64,000 nt of DNA from NCBI GenBank assembly GCA_944390045.1, contig CALXOO010000008.1, forward strand, positions 1-64,000, in the 5' to 3' direction. Positions within the stretch are counted from its first letter, which is position 1. Every line of letters starts with the position of its first letter. The notes under the pieces are model-generated. The model made no database searches and was not told the DNA's origin. It was given only the letters and a program-made list of their open reading frames with translations. The DNA comes from an uncultured Spirochaetales bacterium (GTDB taxonomy: Bacteria; Spirochaetota; Spirochaetia; Sphaerochaetales; Sphaerochaetaceae). Of this stretch, positions 9,917 through 17,419 are shown piece by piece. The translations under genes were made by a program, and so were the position numbers.

Positions 9917-11399
9917 GCGTGCCGCCCTGCTGGAACGCCTCAACAGGGCCTTCGCGGTAGTCACGATCATCTCCACGAGCGGAGCCGTGCCCCGCAAGTC
10001 AGCACGCATGCTGGTCGAGGAGGACGGAGCTGTCACCTCGACAATAGGAGGCCATCTGATCGAGAGGCAGGCCGCAGCCGAGGCCGTGAAGGCCATCAGA
10101 CGCGGCAGCGGAGGCGTGGTGGAAGTTGAGAACGGACGCTCAGGAGGGCGTATTTCTCTTATGATAGATGTTGTTAATCCGGTAAGGCGTGCCTACATCC
10201 TGGGCTTCGGGAATGTCGGGCGCAGTATTGCACAAGTCCTGCATTCTGTAGGTTATGAGATCCATGTCTTCGATGCCGCAGGAGCTGACTGTCCCTTCGC
10301 CTGCGAGGTCAGGGTCGGACCCTGGGACGAGATTCTCTCCGGTCTGACCGTGGACGAATACAGTGCGCTTGTCGTGACCTGCCATGACTGGGAGAGCCTT
10401 CTGCAGAAGACTGACCACAGCAGGGCATTCTATGTGGGTGCGATCTCCTCCAGAGTCCGTGTGATACCCCGCAAGGGGCTTTCCGTTCCGATGGGACTGG
10501 ACATAGGGGGAGAGAGTCCTGAGGAAATCGCAGTCGCGGTCGCGGCTGAGATCATGCGTGCCTGCAGCAGGCATAGCGGTCAGTCCCTGTCCCGCCGCCG
10601 TGAGCGTCTTGTCATTGTCCGCGGAGCCGGTGATCTGGCCACAGCGACAATCATTAAACTCTCAAGGGCGGGCTATGATGTGCTGGCGCTTGAGACACAA
10701 GAGCCCACACAGGTCAGGAGGAATGTCAGTTTCGCGGAGGCGGTCTATGAGGGAAGACACAGCGTGGACGGTCTTGAGGCTGTCAGGATTGACAGCCTGG
10801 AAGATGCATTCAGGGCATTTGACTCAGGGCTTGTCCCTGTCCTGGTCGATCCGCAGGCAGAGAGCATCACAAGACTGCACCCTGCAGTCGTCGTCGATGC
10901 GATAATAGCAAAGCGCAATCTGGGAACGCGCATTGACATGGCTCCCCTGACAATAGCCCTGGGACCAGGCTTTACGGCAGGCACCGATGTCGATGTCGTC
11001 ATAGAGACGCAGCGCGGCCACAATCTCGGGCGTATCATACGGTCCGGACAGGCTGCCGCGAACACCGGAGTGCCCGGAATCATCGCAGGCTATGGAGCGG
11101 AGCGTGTGGTGAGAAGCAGCTGCGGGGGAATCTTCAGGGGCCTCAGGACCTTCGGCGACATTGTCAGGAAGGGTGATGTGATAGCCTATACAGGCGATCA
11201 GCCCCAGACTGCCCCGATAGACGGAATGATCAGGGGTATGCTTCACAGCGGTCTGTCCGTGCCTGAGGGCTTCAAGATAGCCGACATAGATCCGCGGGGG
11301 GAGGGCATTGAATACGACAGCCCCTCCGACAAGGCAAGATGCATCGCAGGGGCTGTGCTTGAGGCTGTCGACTCCTTCTTTGCCTCGCAGCCTATCTGA
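9897..11399 (+). CDS. yqeB: XdhC-YqeB fusion, selenium-molybdenum hydroxylase maturation
   Basis: This ~500-residue protein joins two normally separate families. The N-terminal part (about 1-230) is XdhC/CoxI-like: a VVTIISTSGAVPRKSARM stretch and TIGGHLIE, then a Rossmann segment (ILGFGNVGRS) and an HDWE-VGAISS region. XdhC binds and hands over sulfurated molybdenum cofactor. The C-terminal part (about 240-500) is YqeB, with RGAGDLATA, ETQEPTQVRR and FAEAVYEG. YqeB belongs to the selenium-dependent hydroxylase system. Starts at 9888, 9897 and 9909 are possible; 9897 has the best-spaced site (AAGGA). The fusion suggests cofactor transfer and selenium modification are coupled. Confidence 0.87.
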   Translation: MRSGMFERAALLERLNRAFAVVTIISTSGAVPRKSARMLVEEDGAVTSTIGGHLIERQAAAEAVKAIRRGSGGVVEVENGRSGGRISLMIDVVNPVRRAYILGFGNVGRSIAQVLHSVGYEIHVFDAAGADCPFACEVRVGPWDEILSGLTVDEYSALVVTCHDWESLLQKTDHSRAFYVGAISSRVRVIPRKGLSVPMGLDIGGESPEEIAVAVAAEIMRACSRHSGQSLSRRRERLVIVRGAGDLATATIIKLSRAGYDVLALETQEPTQVRRNVSFAEAVYEGRHSVDGLEAVRIDSLEDAFRAFDSGLVPVLVDPQAESITRLHPAVVVDAIIAKRNLGTRIDMAPLTIALGPGFTAGTDVDVVIETQRGHNLGRIIRSGQAAANTGVPGIIAGYGAERVVRSSCGGIFRGLRTFGDIVRKGDVIAYTGDQPQTAPIDGMIRGMLHSGLSVPEGFKIADIDPRGEGIEYDSPSDKARCIAGAVLEAVDSFFASQPI

Positions 11400-12495
11400 C
11401 CTTGACCAGAGTATAGTCCCTGGTTCCGAGTCCTATCGATTCGGCATACTCCAGACCCTGTTTCCAGGATGTGTCCGGATGGATGTCGTGGAAGTGGTCT
11501 CCTGTATGCTCCTTTGCCTCCGCCAGCATTGAGAGCCTGTTCTCAGGCATTGCGTTGACGGCATCGGCGCAGGCCTGGTCCAGTGCCACCGGATCGAATG
11601 ATGCGAAGAGCCCCACGTTGTTAGTGATCGGCGCATCGTTCTCTGCATGACAGTCGCAGTTGGGTGAGATGTCGACAGCGATCGAGATGTGGAAGCAGGG
11701 CCTGCCCTGGAGCACAGCCTTCGCATACTCCATCATCCTGCAATTGAGGATCTCGTTGCTGTTGGACACGCCTTCGCTGATCGCATCAACCGGACAGACT
11801 CCGATGCACCTTCCGCATCCCACGCACTTTGTAAGGTCTATGTGACACTTTCCGTTTTCGAATGAAGGGGCTGCGTGGGCGCAGATGCGCTCGCAGCGGC
11901 GGCATCCAATGCACTTTCCGGCATCGGCGACAGGCTTTCCCTGACTGTGCATGTCCATCTTGCCGGCACGTGAGCCGCAGCCCATGCCGATGTTCTTGAG
12001 CGCACCGCCGAAGCCTGTGGCCTCATGTCCCTTGAAGTGGTTGAGTGATATGAATATGTCAGCATCCATCACCGCACGTCCGATATGGGCCTGCTTCACA
12101 TAGTTGCCGTCTACCGGGACATCAACCTCATCCGTACCCTTCAGTCCGTCGGCGATGATGATCTGACAGCCCGTCGTCAGCGGATTGAAGCCGTTGAGAT
12201 TCGCGCTGTCCAGATGGTCGAGCGCGTTCTTCCTTCCTCCGACATAGAGCGTGTTGCAGTCGGTGAGGAAGGGTTTTCCGCCCAGTCTCTTCACTTCATC
12301 CGCGACGCATCTGGCCCAGTTCGGCCTCAGAAAGGCCAGGTTGCCCGGCTCTCCGAAGTGCATCTTGATGGCGGCATAATGGTTTTTGAAGTCAATCGTG
12401 CCGATTCCGGCCTCCCTGATCAGGCGCGTGAGCTTGTCAAGAAGGGAATTGTTGAAACCGGTCCTCAGATCAGTATAGTAGACAGTGCTTGGCAT
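11392..12495 (-). CDS. DUF362 protein with 2x[4Fe-4S] ferredoxin domain
   Basis: This 367-residue protein has an N-terminal DUF362 domain and a central ferredoxin pair with cysteine motifs CIGCRRCERIC and CVGCGRCIGVCP (about 195-240). DUF362 proteins of this kind are common in anaerobes; most have no known substrate. It is probably cytoplasmic, since no signal peptide is seen. The ATG follows GGAGG at good spacing. The gene converges on the XdhC-YqeB gene with an 8-nt overlap of their 3' ends. A role as an electron carrier for the hydroxylases is possible but only guessed from position. Confidence 0.85.
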   Translation of the reverse strand: MPSTVYYTDLRTGFNNSLLDKLTRLIREAGIGTIDFKNHYAAIKMHFGEPGNLAFLRPNWARCVADEVKRLGGKPFLTDCNTLYVGGRKNALDHLDSANLNGFNPLTTGCQIIIADGLKGTDEVDVPVDGNYVKQAHIGRAVMDADIFISLNHFKGHEATGFGGALKNIGMGCGSRAGKMDMHSQGKPVADAGKCIGCRRCERICAHAAPSFENGKCHIDLTKCVGCGRCIGVCPVDAISEGVSNSNEILNCRMMEYAKAVLQGRPCFHISIAVDISPNCDCHAENDAPITNNVGLFASFDPVALDQACADAVNAMPENRLSMLAEAKEHTGDHFHDIHPDTSWKQGLEYAESIGLGTRDYTLVKVR

Positions 12496-12660: not shown

Positions 12661-12689
12661 TTGACGGGGGGGGGGTAACCATATATCCT
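12661..12689 (+). promoter_or_regulatory. Promoter with G10 tract in its spacer
   Basis: TTGACG (12661-12666) is followed by a run of ten G (12666-12675) and, 17 bp after the -35 box, by TATCCT (12684-12689). The homopolymer fills over half the spacer, so slipped-strand changes of one or two G would change promoter spacing and strength. An AT-rich alternative -10 (TATATC) overlaps at shorter spacing. GGGGAGGG precedes the ATG. Confidence 0.6.
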
Positions 12690-12712
12690 GAAAGAAAAAG
12701 GGGAGGGAAAAT

Positions 12713-14884
12713 ATGGCTAAGCCAAAATTTACTGAAATAGTATCATTGTTTCTTCTGTTGATCTTAATGCTGTTCATCTCATCCTGTGGACAAGATACGC
12801 CTGAACCACCGGTCATTGCAGTTGAGAGCGTGAAAATCCAGAGTACTACCACGACAGTGCAAGCTGGAGGCACTCTTAAACTGGAAGTGACAGTGCTTCC
12901 AGCAGATGCAAGCGATAAAACTGTCATTTGGTCAAGTTCTGATGCCTCTGTTGCGAGTGTTGACAGCTCAGGTCTCGTCACTGCTCACAAAGTTGGAAAT
13001 ACAAAAATAACTGCAGCCAGTGGGAAAGCAAGCGACAGCGTTGATCTAAAAATCATTGCTGAGGCAAAACCTGTTACTGCTCTTGAGTTTAAATCAGGTA
13101 CACTGATGCTGGCTCGAGGGACAACAAGTACTACTCCAGAAATTGTAATCACACCAATAGACACAACAGATTCAGTGGTACTGACATCCGACAATCCTGA
13201 CGTTCTGATAGTATCCGGAGGTAGTATTGTCGCGCTGAATGTCGGAACAGCCACACTTACTGCTACAGCCACGTCAGGAGTGAGTGATACATGTTCTGTG
13301 ACCGTGATTGAGCCGATTGTCGAACTGACCTTCAACTATGATGAGGAGTTTGTCCTTCCGCTGACTGGAGAGCCTTATGATATCAGGTCCATACTTGAGG
13401 TTAAGCCTGCAGGATACACCGGAAGTGACCTTGCTTTCTCATCAAGTGATGAAAAAGTCTTCACAGTCGATGAAGACGGTCTGGTGACTGCCATGGGTGT
13501 TGGACAGGGTATTCTGACTGCATCAGGTGGGTTTAATGATGTGTCCGGCCAGCTTATCATAAATGTCACCGATGATAAGATTGAAGCGGAAATCACTCTG
13601 GACAAGACATCTATCTCAATTGAGAACGGCATGGCTGGCAAACTTTCCGCAACTGTCACCGGCACAGCCCTGAGACCTGTCTGGTCTTCAGAGGACCCTG
13701 ATATCGCAGAAGTGGACAGTGAAGGCAACCTGACAGCCAGAGGTGTGGGGACGACAACTGTCACGGCATCTATTCCGGCTGCAGGAGTTTCTGCTTCCTG
13801 CGAAGTCACTGTGAGGCCGGCGCATGTGTTATCTGTAAGTATGGACCAGACTTCGCTTACGGTCACAGAAGGTGATACGGCACAGCTCAGAGTTCTAATC
13901 ACTCCAGAGACCGCAGTGGGAAATGAGGTAACATGGTCGAGTTCCGATGAAGCCGTTGCCTCTGTATCAGATACTGGTCTTGTTACGGCAAAAAGCACAG
14001 GCCAGACAACAATTACGGCAGAGGCGGATGAGAAGAGTGCCAGCTGCGTGGTTACAGTTGCCAGAGCCGGTGATTTGGGAACTGAACGCCTGGTTCCGCC
14101 AGATTGGGCTATAGGAACGTTCAATGGTCAAGTTGACTTTAATCTTGGAACCGGTGCGGTCACAACATATCTAGTCGTTGAGGAAGATAACTTTGATCTG
14201 TTTATTGAAACGGATCCTAATATATATATGTCTGGTGTGGAGTCATTCTACAATGGCCGGTACATAATTGTTGAGCAGTATAAGGCAGAAGGTGATTATC
14301 ATCTTTCAATAAAACCAGAGAACACTGAAGGTGCAGCCGGCCTTATCACGGATATCACGCTCGCCGAAGCGGAGAATGGCGTGCACATGACGTATGTGAC
14401 GCATTACTCTGAAAGCGGAGAACAGAGTTATTCTTATGATGCCTACATGAGTGAGGATACAGATTTTGTTGCTCCCCTGACCTTTGCGAGACTTGAGCGT
14501 ATTTTTGAGGAAAGCAATTCAAAGCCTAGTGAATCACTTGTCGTTCCGGATTGGTTCAAAGGCTATGGCGCAGATGGAAAGTACATTGATATTATTGATG
14601 GTAAGCTGATGTTCGGTGAAGATGGGGAAAGCGGTATTATATGGAGTAATATGACAGAGGGTGTTCCAATATCTGATGTTGAAAGCATTCTTTATCAGTA
14701 CAATGACAGGTATTTCATGACAGATATTTCTGGTTATGAGCCAAGTGTTAACGAATTACTGCATGTCCGCATAGTAATAGAGAACCTCAGTGATGGCAGT
14801 GCTATGTTCAGAATTTGTCCACAAAAAGGCGATGAGCGTCTTTATAGTGCACAGTATGATATACGGATGTATGCGATGACATGA
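12713..14884 (+). CDS. Surface lipoprotein with five Big_2 Ig-like repeats
   Basis: This 723-residue exported protein has a hydrophobic signal ending in lipobox FISSC, so it should be lipid-anchored. Residues about 38-450 hold five bacterial Ig-like (Big_2) repeats of about 80 residues, marked by 'WSSSD-AS-D--G-VTA---G-TTITA' patterns. The remaining ~270 residues look like two copies of one beta-rich domain, each opening with a 'VPDW--G' motif (about residues 461 and 606) and sharing a 'VESF-NGRY' segment. Big_2 proteins are commonly adhesins or cell-surface scaffolds. The gene is visibly more AT-rich than its neighbours, has its own promoter and terminator, and may be a recent acquisition. 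Confidence 0.85.
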   Translation: MAKPKFTEIVSLFLLLILMLFISSCGQDTPEPPVIAVESVKIQSTTTTVQAGGTLKLEVTVLPADASDKTVIWSSSDASVASVDSSGLVTAHKVGNTKITAASGKASDSVDLKIIAEAKPVTALEFKSGTLMLARGTTSTTPEIVITPIDTTDSVVLTSDNPDVLIVSGGSIVALNVGTATLTATATSGVSDTCSVTVIEPIVELTFNYDEEFVLPLTGEPYDIRSILEVKPAGYTGSDLAFSSSDEKVFTVDEDGLVTAMGVGQGILTASGGFNDVSGQLIINVTDDKIEAEITLDKTSISIENGMAGKLSATVTGTALRPVWSSEDPDIAEVDSEGNLTARGVGTTTVTASIPAAGVSASCEVTVRPAHVLSVSMDQTSLTVTEGDTAQLRVLITPETAVGNEVTWSSSDEAVASVSDTGLVTAKSTGQTTITAEADEKSASCVVTVARAGDLGTERLVPPDWAIGTFNGQVDFNLGTGAVTTYLVVEEDNFDLFIETDPNIYMSGVESFYNGRYIIVEQYKAEGDYHLSIKPENTEGAAGLITDITLAEAENGVHMTYVTHYSESGEQSYSYDAYMSEDTDFVAPLTFARLERIFEESNSKPSESLVVPDWFKGYGADGKYIDIIDGKLMFGEDGESGIIWSNMTEGVPISDVESILYQYNDRYFMTDISGYEPSVNELLHVRIVIENLSDGSAMFRICPQKGDERLYSAQYDIRMYAMT

Positions 14885-14920
14885 CAGCCCGGCTGTCAGC
14901 TGTACATTGCCGCTTTTCGG

Positions 14921-14955
14921 GGCTCCTCAGCAGGGGAGCCTCTCTTATATTTCTC
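14921..14955 (+). terminator. Terminator after the Big_2 lipoprotein gene
   Basis: GGCTCCTC (14921-14928) pairs with GGGGAGCC (14933-14940) around an AGCA loop, followed by a T-rich TCTCTTATATTTCT. It separates the lipoprotein gene from proA. Confidence 0.75.
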
Positions 14956-14996: not shown

Positions 14997-16295
14997 ATGA
15001 GTGTTGACAGTTCCAGGATGGAATACAGGGCGGTAAGAAAGGCGGCCATGTCCCTTTCCCTGCTCAGTGATGATGAGAGATCAGCCATGCTGCTGAGGAT
15101 GGCTGACGGACTTCAGCGGAACAGGGACAGGATCTTCCAGGCAAACGGTGAGGACCTTGCCCAGGCAGTGAGCGGTGGAACGCCGGATGCCCTGCTGCAC
15201 CGTCTGAAGCTTGACGGATCAAAGCTTGAGGGCGCGCTTGAAGGTGTGCGCACAGTTGCATCTCTTCCCTGTCCGGTCGGAAGGGTGAGGGAAAGACGGC
15301 TTCTGGACGAAGGTCTTCTCCTGGAGAAGGTCACGTACCCGATAGGCGTCATAGGAATGGTGTTCGAGGCAAGACCTGATGCCCTGATCCAGATCGTCTC
15401 CCTTGCGGTGAAAAGCGCGAACGGTATCATCCTGAAGGGCGGACGCGAGGCCATGAGGACCAATTCTGTCCTTGTCGAGATCATCAGGGAAAGCCTTGAC
15501 GGGGCACCCTTCCTGATGCTGCTCTCCAGTCATTCGGATGTGGATACGATGCTGTCGATGGAGGGTGATGTCGACCTGATCATCCCGCGCGGAAGCAACG
15601 CCTTTGTCCGCTACTGCATGGATCACACCCACATCCCGGTGCTCGGGCATGCGGATGGAATCTGCAGTGTCTATGTTGACAGATCGGCGGATCTGGATCT
15701 GGCAGTGAAAGTCGCTGTTGACAGCAAGGTGCAGTACCCCGCGGCCTGCAATGCGGCGGAGACAGTCCTGGTGCATGAGGGCATTGCCGGGGATTTCATT
15801 CCGGCATTCAGGGCAGAACTGGACAGATACGGTGTCATCATCCATGCGGATGACAGGAGTCTGGCCATACTTGGCGGTGAGAGTGGAAATGTCGTTCGTG
15901 CACTCGAGGATGACTTCCATACCGAGTTCCTGTCGCTGCAGCTTGCGCTCAAGGTCGTGGACGGAATAGACGAGGCCATTGCCCACATTGCCTCCCACGG
16001 CTCACATCATACAGACGCGATAATAACATCCGACGAGACAAGCAGAAGACGTTTTTTCAGCGAGGTTGATTCAGCTGATGTCTTTTCCAACTGCTCGACA
16101 CGCTTCGCTGACGGCTTCCGCTTCGGCCTCGGCGCGGAGGTGGGAATCTCCACGGGAAAGATCCACGCCCGCGGCCCTGTCGGACTGGAAGGGCTGACGA
16201 CAACCAAGTGGCAGCTGTCCGGAAGCGGGCAGACCGTGGCTGAGTACTCCGGTTCTGATGCCCGCCGCTTCATGCACAAGGACCTGCCGCTATGA
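14997..16295 (+). CDS. proA: Gamma-glutamyl phosphate reductase
   Basis: This 432-residue NADPH-dependent enzyme reduces glutamyl-5-phosphate to glutamate-5-semialdehyde, the second step of proline synthesis. It has the aldehyde-dehydrogenase fold with VIGMVFEARPDA near residue 115 and the catalytic cysteine in YPAACNAAET (about residue 250). The length is normal for the family. The ATG at 14997 has no visible ribosome-binding site; a second in-frame ATG lies seven codons on. proB starts inside its stop codon (ATGA), so the two are translationally coupled. The gene order proA-proB is the reverse of E. coli. Confidence 0.95.
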   Translation: MSVDSSRMEYRAVRKAAMSLSLLSDDERSAMLLRMADGLQRNRDRIFQANGEDLAQAVSGGTPDALLHRLKLDGSKLEGALEGVRTVASLPCPVGRVRERRLLDEGLLLEKVTYPIGVIGMVFEARPDALIQIVSLAVKSANGIILKGGREAMRTNSVLVEIIRESLDGAPFLMLLSSHSDVDTMLSMEGDVDLIIPRGSNAFVRYCMDHTHIPVLGHADGICSVYVDRSADLDLAVKVAVDSKVQYPAACNAAETVLVHEGIAGDFIPAFRAELDRYGVIIHADDRSLAILGGESGNVVRALEDDFHTEFLSLQLALKVVDGIDEAIAHIASHGSHHTDAIITSDETSRRRFFSEVDSADVFSNCSTRFADGFRFGLGAEVGISTGKIHARGPVGLEGLTTTKWQLSGSGQTVAEYSGSDARRFMHKDLPL

Positions 16296-17419
16296 GGGAT
16301 TTCTCAAAGGTAAGGCGCATAGTCGTGAAAGTCGGCACCAACCTGCTGTCCAGCGAGGAGGGAATAGATGCCGGACGGGTCTCGGATATCTGCAGCCAGA
16401 TAGCAGAGCTCAGGAATCTGGGCTATCAGGTCATCCTCGTATCATCCGGAGCGGTTGGTCTCGGAGCCCGGGAGCTCGGACACAGGAACAGGGTCGTCTA
16501 CATTCCCATGAGACAGGCCTGTGCCGCGATCGGACAGCCGGTGCTGATGAGCCATTATCGTGAGGCCTTCCGGGAACACGGAATAATTGCGGCCCAGGTC
16601 CTGCTGACCCGCAATGACCTGAACAACCGCAAGACATACAACAATCTGCGTGCCAGTGTGTCCACGCTCCTGTCCATGGGTGTCGTTCCCGTATTCAACG
16701 AGAATGATGTCGTCTCCATCGCGGAGATTGGCACTGCATTCGGTGACAACGACAGAATGAGCGCGATGGTCGCGAGCAAGATCGACGCCCAGCTGCTGGT
16801 GTTGCTCACGGACATCGATGGCCTGTATACCGGAAATCCGAAGACCGATCCACAGGCACGCAAGCTGGATGAGATAGACAGCGTCAGCGATGAGGTGATG
16901 TCTTTTGCCAGAGGGGCCGGGTCCACGTTCTCCACCGGGGGCATGAAGACCAAGCTGATGGCTGCGAAAATCGCTGCCATGGCGGACTGTGCCACTGTGA
17001 TCGCATCCGGCTATGACCGCAATGTGCTGGTCTCGATCCTGAGCGGAGAGAATACCGGGACATACATACATCCCTCAATCCGTCTGACCCAGCGTCAGCG
17101 CTGGATAATAAACAACAGCCATTCCGGCGCTGTCGTGATCGACGACGGTGCGGTGCAGGCTCTGGAAAAACACAGATCACTGTTGCCAAGCGGCGTCATC
17201 GGTGTTTCAGGAGTGTTTGAGAGTGGTGATGTCATACAGGTCCGGAAGGCTGACGGAAGCCTGTTCGGAAAGGCCGTGAGCTATTTTGACAGCACCATGA
17301 TTTCAATGATGATGGGCAAGCAGAGCGGCGAGCTTGACGCCCTGCTTGGAAATGATCATAAAGACTGTATCTTCCGTCCGGAGGACTTGGTGGTGGTGAA
17401 AGATGATAGCTCATTATAA
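16292..17419 (+). CDS. proB: Glutamate 5-kinase
   Basis: This 375-residue enzyme phosphorylates glutamate at the gamma carboxylate, committing it to proline. The amino-acid-kinase domain (about 1-255) shows VVKVGTNLLSS, LVSSGAVGLGARELG and the FGDNDRMSA substrate loop. The C-terminal ~100 residues match a PUA domain (GVIGVSGVFESGDV region), the typical two-domain form. It overlaps proA by 4 nt. Feedback inhibition by proline is usual for this enzyme. Confidence 0.95.
   Translation: MRDFSKVRRIVVKVGTNLLSSEEGIDAGRVSDICSQIAELRNLGYQVILVSSGAVGLGARELGHRNRVVYIPMRQACAAIGQPVLMSHYREAFREHGIIAAQVLLTRNDLNNRKTYNNLRASVSTLLSMGVVPVFNENDVVSIAEIGTAFGDNDRMSAMVASKIDAQLLVLLTDIDGLYTGNPKTDPQARKLDEIDSVSDEVMSFARGAGSTFSTGGMKTKLMAAKIAAMADCATVIASGYDRNVLVSILSGENTGTYIHPSIRLTQRQRWIINNSHSGAVVIDDGAVQALEKHRSLLPSGVIGVSGVFESGDVIQVRKADGSLFGKAVSYFDSTMISMMMGKQSGELDALLGNDHKDCIFRPEDLVVVKDDSSL

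Follow-up and report, generated by a model that had tools for sequence, protein, structure and literature searches.

The 64-kb window (the whole stretch of DNA analysed, from a draft genome of 2.0 Mb and 62 contigs) contains a run of ten G in the putative promoter of a gene for a lipoprotein with Big_2 Ig-like domains. We conclude that this run very probably serves as a hypermutable spacer in a sigma-70-type promoter and that the lipoprotein is very probably phase-variable by spacer slippage. Phase variation had been proposed in a sequence-only reading of the locus. Comparison with relatives lends it support, via a lineage-wide promoter layout, a bias toward lipoproteins among the downstream genes, differences in length, and tracts that fall within codons elsewhere.

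The putative promoter and its gene in the window

The locus reads ATATTGAC-G10-TAACCATATATCCT, then GGGGAGGGA, then the ATG at 12713. The following features were recognized:

12661-12666, + strand: -35-like hexamer TTGACG (consensus match); the G tract begins at its sixth base
12666-12675, + strand: G10 tract, the proposed slippage (contingency) tract and the sole G or C run of at least 7 in the window
12667-12683, + strand: spacer between TTGACG and TATCCT, 17 nt
12684-12689, + strand: -10-like hexamer TATCCT (consensus match), 17 bp after TTGACG
12700-12708, + strand: Shine-Dalgarno-like GGGGAGGGA, assigned from the sequence
12713-14884, + strand: lipoprotein gene with Big_2 Ig-like domains (Pfam), 723 aa, lipobox near LFISSC
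14919-14942, + strand: terminator-like stem-loop past the lipoprotein gene (a consensus match only, of a kind whose number was not above that in shuffles)

A long mononucleotide tract is thus present between -35 and -10 boxes that are themselves consensus matches only. The initial description of TTGACG followed by ten G needs a small correction, as the sixth base of the hexamer counts among the ten: nine G follow TTGACG, and exactly ten follow TTGAC. The 17-bp spacing given for TATCCT agrees with the coordinates above; an alternative -10, TATATC, stands at 15 bp. This copy is atypical in that G10 abuts the -35 and 8 bases separate the tract from the -10.

The lipoprotein has three Big_2 stretches (Pfam, E 2.5e-48). 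Its gene was correctly described as AT-richer, with a GC content of 46% versus 56% around it, in the lowest 0.2% of equal-sized windows. Given the terminator-like stem-loop, a switch would affect the lipoprotein gene alone. No close orthologue was found; identity to the best relatives, where stretches could be matched, is 36-46%, and a genome-contig search gave one distant Big_2 match only. The gene is flanked by a DUF362-like ferredoxin-type gene (11392-12495) and by proA/proB-like genes (14997-17419). Among the relatives examined, the neighbor of the DUF362-like gene is mostly a phosphodiesterase-like gene, not this lipoprotein, and the site between the DUF362-like and proA/proB-like genes may be an insertion spot.

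The claim that G10 is the only long tract of its kind was borne out: the next longest G or C run in the 64 kb is 6. Runs of at least 10 on either strand are expected 0.11 times in the window under a dinucleotide model and about 0.009 times under a third-order model. G8 alone showed no excess in the window (3 overlapping matches versus 2.7 expected in a shuffle control), and the promoter boxes alone were at chance level (8 matches in 3.5 kb versus 4.1 in shuffles). The case for the promoter is therefore made by comparison with relatives. It is the recurrence of the full arrangement there, not the boxes in the window, that exceeds chance.

Recurrence of the arrangement in related genomes

We collected 98 distinct tracts of at least nine G from 16 congeneric genomes. 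In 28 of them the G strand carries TTGAC no more than 17 nt upstream, where 1.5 would be expected (P about 7e-28); TTGAC is downstream in 2. TA directly follows the tract in 25/28 cases with TTGAC versus 30/70 of the others. Most congener tracts with upstream TTGAC have the common layout TTGACA-N(4-12)-G8-13-TANNNT. At promoter sites with a readable downstream gene, a median of 32 nt lies between the end of the -10 and the start codon.

More broadly, TTGACN{0,12}G9 was found in 51 of 139 genomes of the family, with about 320 placements versus about 7 for the reversed pattern; the placements were summed by hand and are not loci, as tracts longer than nine G count repeatedly. Up to about 20 match placements occur per genome. 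The stricter TTGACN{0,14}G6+TANNNT has 25 sites in the genus itself; in another genus (g31), about 80 were counted across 13 genomes. Reversed controls gave none. Tract position is therefore non-random relative to promoters in this lineage (28/98 versus 1.5; about 320 versus 7). Class-wide, the layout is present in 97 of 395 genomes and in more than one family; the same search of 395 genomes did not reveal it in family f19 (0.9-1.9-Mb genomes).

Within the genome that includes the window, G9+ tracts occur at seven places (six G9 and one G10) and an exact G8 just once, whereas run lengths that simply decay would show the opposite. Lipoprotein genes follow three of these tracts, at a distance of 32-38 nt:

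window: G10, before the Big_2 lipoprotein gene
C1: before a Big_2 paralogue (TTGACACGAAGGGGGGGGGTATATCCT)
C54: before a third lipoprotein, C9 (TTGAACCTACCCCCCCCCTCCATGCTACTCT)

The promoter of the C1 paralogue (L001/L148) reads TTGACACGAA-G9-TATATCCT. It has ATTGAC and TATATCCT in common with the window promoter, and little else is alike around the tract. Elsewhere in the genome (C49:4200-4208; L151 near 3001), a G9 joins two overlapping frames, ...GIDGKSGGGG upstream and GGDSPVMIFIDIELD... downstream (199 aa). This tract is possibly a frame switch that is now out of frame.

Genes downstream of the tract promoters

The analysed DNA contains 105 distinct promoter sites, and the downstream gene was readable for 95. 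Predicted lipoproteins account for 80 of these 95 versus 2 of 53 window genes (Fisher P about 2e-23), as called by a simple motif rule (a similar one for the window genes) at sites that are not a random sample but come from the genus itself, g31 and a few other genomes. About ten further downstream genes have signal-peptide-like starts. The genes that follow these tracts thus encode mainly surface or secreted proteins, as judged by the 80/95 predicted lipoproteins, and the window gene, with its LFISSC lipobox, conforms. The downstream proteins are otherwise diverse, including Big_2 proteins, BspA-type leucine-rich repeats, Pectate_lyase_5, List_Bact repeats and beta-barrels, and many have no Pfam match.

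Insertion-sequence-like ends were found at some tract promoters. All four copies found of one such end in genome G001 (inward TGAACTGACCCCCTGAAGG...; L124, L126, L127 and L128, at contig ends) stop exactly 4 nt before G9, as if the element targets G-tract promoters. In five G-tract promoters (L256-L259 in G066, L265 in G074), TTGACA is preceded at about 14-16 nt by a different such end. It encodes an inward IS3-type OrfA-like start (MPKRYPRQFRKMVAELICVQNEGTIKTAEEF...) that has no Pfam match.

Differences in tract and spacer length

The length differences described here come from relatives, and homopolymer lengths in metagenome-type assemblies are consensus values. In one genome (G062), two contigs differ in upstream sequence but match exactly around the promoter and for ~140 nt after it, except that one has G10 and the other G9. 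Two orthologues that are 90% identical (L210 and L220) have spacers of 16 and 15 bp, whereas G12 and a 21-bp spacer are found in a 70% identical relative of the pair (L186). Some homologues of the window protein also have promoter tracts: G9 for the two in G013, with spacers of 16 and 19 bp, and G13 for the one in G015, with a spacer of 21 bp.

A further homologue of the window protein, in G005, has G9 within its signal-peptide codons (MEKIRRSILMGGGKTLLLG...). Intragenic tracts are also present in other lipoproteins, in frame in L043 and L130 and out of frame in the assembly in L092 and L139. A tract that is found now in the spacer, now in the reading frame of one protein class would be expected for switching. 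Judged from these sequences, such a distribution would be hard to explain by a fixed binding site.

Genes of other kinds contain intragenic G9 as well. L049, L050 and L094 are DPPY-motif, DNA-methyltransferase-like genes with such tracts, with weak Pfam support (N6_N4_Mtase, E 5e-4, in L050 only), and a DUF1156 protein (L140) also contains a tract. L050, out of frame in the assembly, is a possible phase-variable modification gene. Switching of surface sugars is a possibility raised by the tracts of L119, a glycosyltransferase (Pfam), and of two more genes (L113 and L114, the latter out of frame).

Proposed mechanism and alternatives

Slipped-strand mispairing at replication would add G to the tract or remove it, and the changed count would alter the distance from -35 to -10. 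At 17 bp, the assembled G10 state, good binding by RNA polymerase is predicted; at 15 or 19 bp, binding is predicted to be poor. The population would contain both lipoprotein-ON and lipoprotein-OFF cells, and the window promoter would be one of a large lineage set driving different lipoproteins. We infer that the tract slips in living cells of the source species, that the boxes are used, that G10 is the ON state and that the protein is exposed at the surface.

Two observations do not fit a model of distance alone: the near-restriction of the tract to G on the coding strand, together with its usual contact with the -10, and the spacer modes of 16 and 19 bp. On the first, poly-C was considered as an equal alternative to poly-G and was rejected, as TTGAC..C9 is at background family-wide (24 versus 27), although some C tracts still precede lipoproteins. 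The preference for G over C is not accounted for by spacer length alone. The tract in relatives also usually touches the -10, which places G at -14. On the second, assembled spacers, counted with a pattern that admits up to 21 bp, peak at 19 bp, not 17, in g31 (54/96) and at 16 bp in the genus itself (12/27). This would follow if many of the promoters (most of them, in g31) happened to be in a low state when assembled, if the preferred spacing is different, or if a G-specific contact also contributes. The spacing of TTGACA-N-TATAAT in the genus is at background relative to the reversed pattern, with a small peak at 16 bp.

An alternative is that the G tract changes expression via regulator binding or DNA shape and not via the distance from -35 to -10. 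The strong strand preference, the G always found at -14 where the tract abuts the -10 in most relatives, and the different spacer modes of the two genera all favor such an explanation, and binding of a CRP homologue at tprE/G/J and the opc model provide precedents (PMC7864442). Nevertheless, TTGAC and TANNNT are consistently found on the two sides of the tract, which would be expected if spacing is what counts, and a few C-tract versions do precede lipoproteins (L111, L137 and L147). We consider this explanation unlikely, and prefer slippage in a promoter spacer.

It is still less probable that the window tract is a fixed run that arose by chance and does not take part in switching this gene. 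The chance-level frequency of the boxes and the atypical layout of this copy would be consistent with such a run, but it is the sole one in 64 kb and stands before one of the window's two lipoprotein-like genes, and a paralogue in the same genome has its tract at the corresponding position, between flanks that are unrelated. An error of sequencing or assembly in the G count, conceivable for a draft of 62 contigs, is very nearly discounted by the recurrence of this class of tract, at the same position, across many independent genomes; controls were at or near zero.

Significance and comparison with known systems

Poly-G promoter switching is a subject of study in pathogens, among them T. pallidum and Neisseria. 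The literature searched included no paper joining Sphaerochaeta with phase variation, and no survey of homopolymer promoters in spirochaetes. The mechanism is already known; the family-wide lipoprotein set appears to be undescribed in that literature. Going beyond the window, we see an even chance that several families of the class share a standard phase-variable cassette, TTGACA-N(4-12)-G8-13-TANNNT, which each lineage has placed before dozens of surface lipoprotein genes unrelated to one another, with the G strand and the -10 contact constrained, and which is repeatedly targeted by insertion sequences. If true, this would reveal a lipoprotein-switching repertoire in little-studied relatives. 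The recurrence of the layout in several families, mostly before lipoproteins where downstream genes were read, would suggest that phase variation of surface lipoproteins is a general trait in what is probably the class of Treponema, and not a pathogen trick. The sequence pattern lets switch genes be found and their tract lengths be read from existing metagenome reads.

The analogy with Treponema drawn in the sequence-only reading is apt, but the closest cases are tp0126 and porA, not the tpr genes generally. The window protein is itself not a Tpr, as it has Big_2 Ig-like domains (Pfam) and is not porin-like as Tpr proteins are. In T. pallidum, tp0126 encodes an OmpW homologue and has poly-G between -35 and -10, with a reported optimum of 17 bp (PMC7864442). 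Like the window promoter, it combines a poly-G spacer with an envelope-protein gene, in an organism of probably the same bacterial class. It differs in that its product is a porin-like outer-membrane protein, not a lipoprotein, while the window promoter is part of a set of dozens; switching was measured in tp0126, whereas we infer it for the window promoter. The porA gene of Neisseria meningitidis has a poly-G of 9-11 between -35 and -10 and graded expression (PMC3639595). It too has poly-G in a promoter spacer, but the organism and gene are unrelated and it is a single locus.

Other systems are less close. At tprE/G/J and tprL of T. pallidum, single isolates contain poly-G tracts of different lengths, and reporter output changes with the length; tprE/G/J are permissive with no more than 8 G, and a CRP homologue may take part, beyond spacing (PMC7864442). 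These are poly-G tracts at surface-protein promoters, as in the window, but their mechanism may not be spacing alone. The poly-C of opc in N. meningitidis overlaps the -35 region, and the window tract likewise runs into its -35; opc differs in having C in place of G and in its regulator-binding model.
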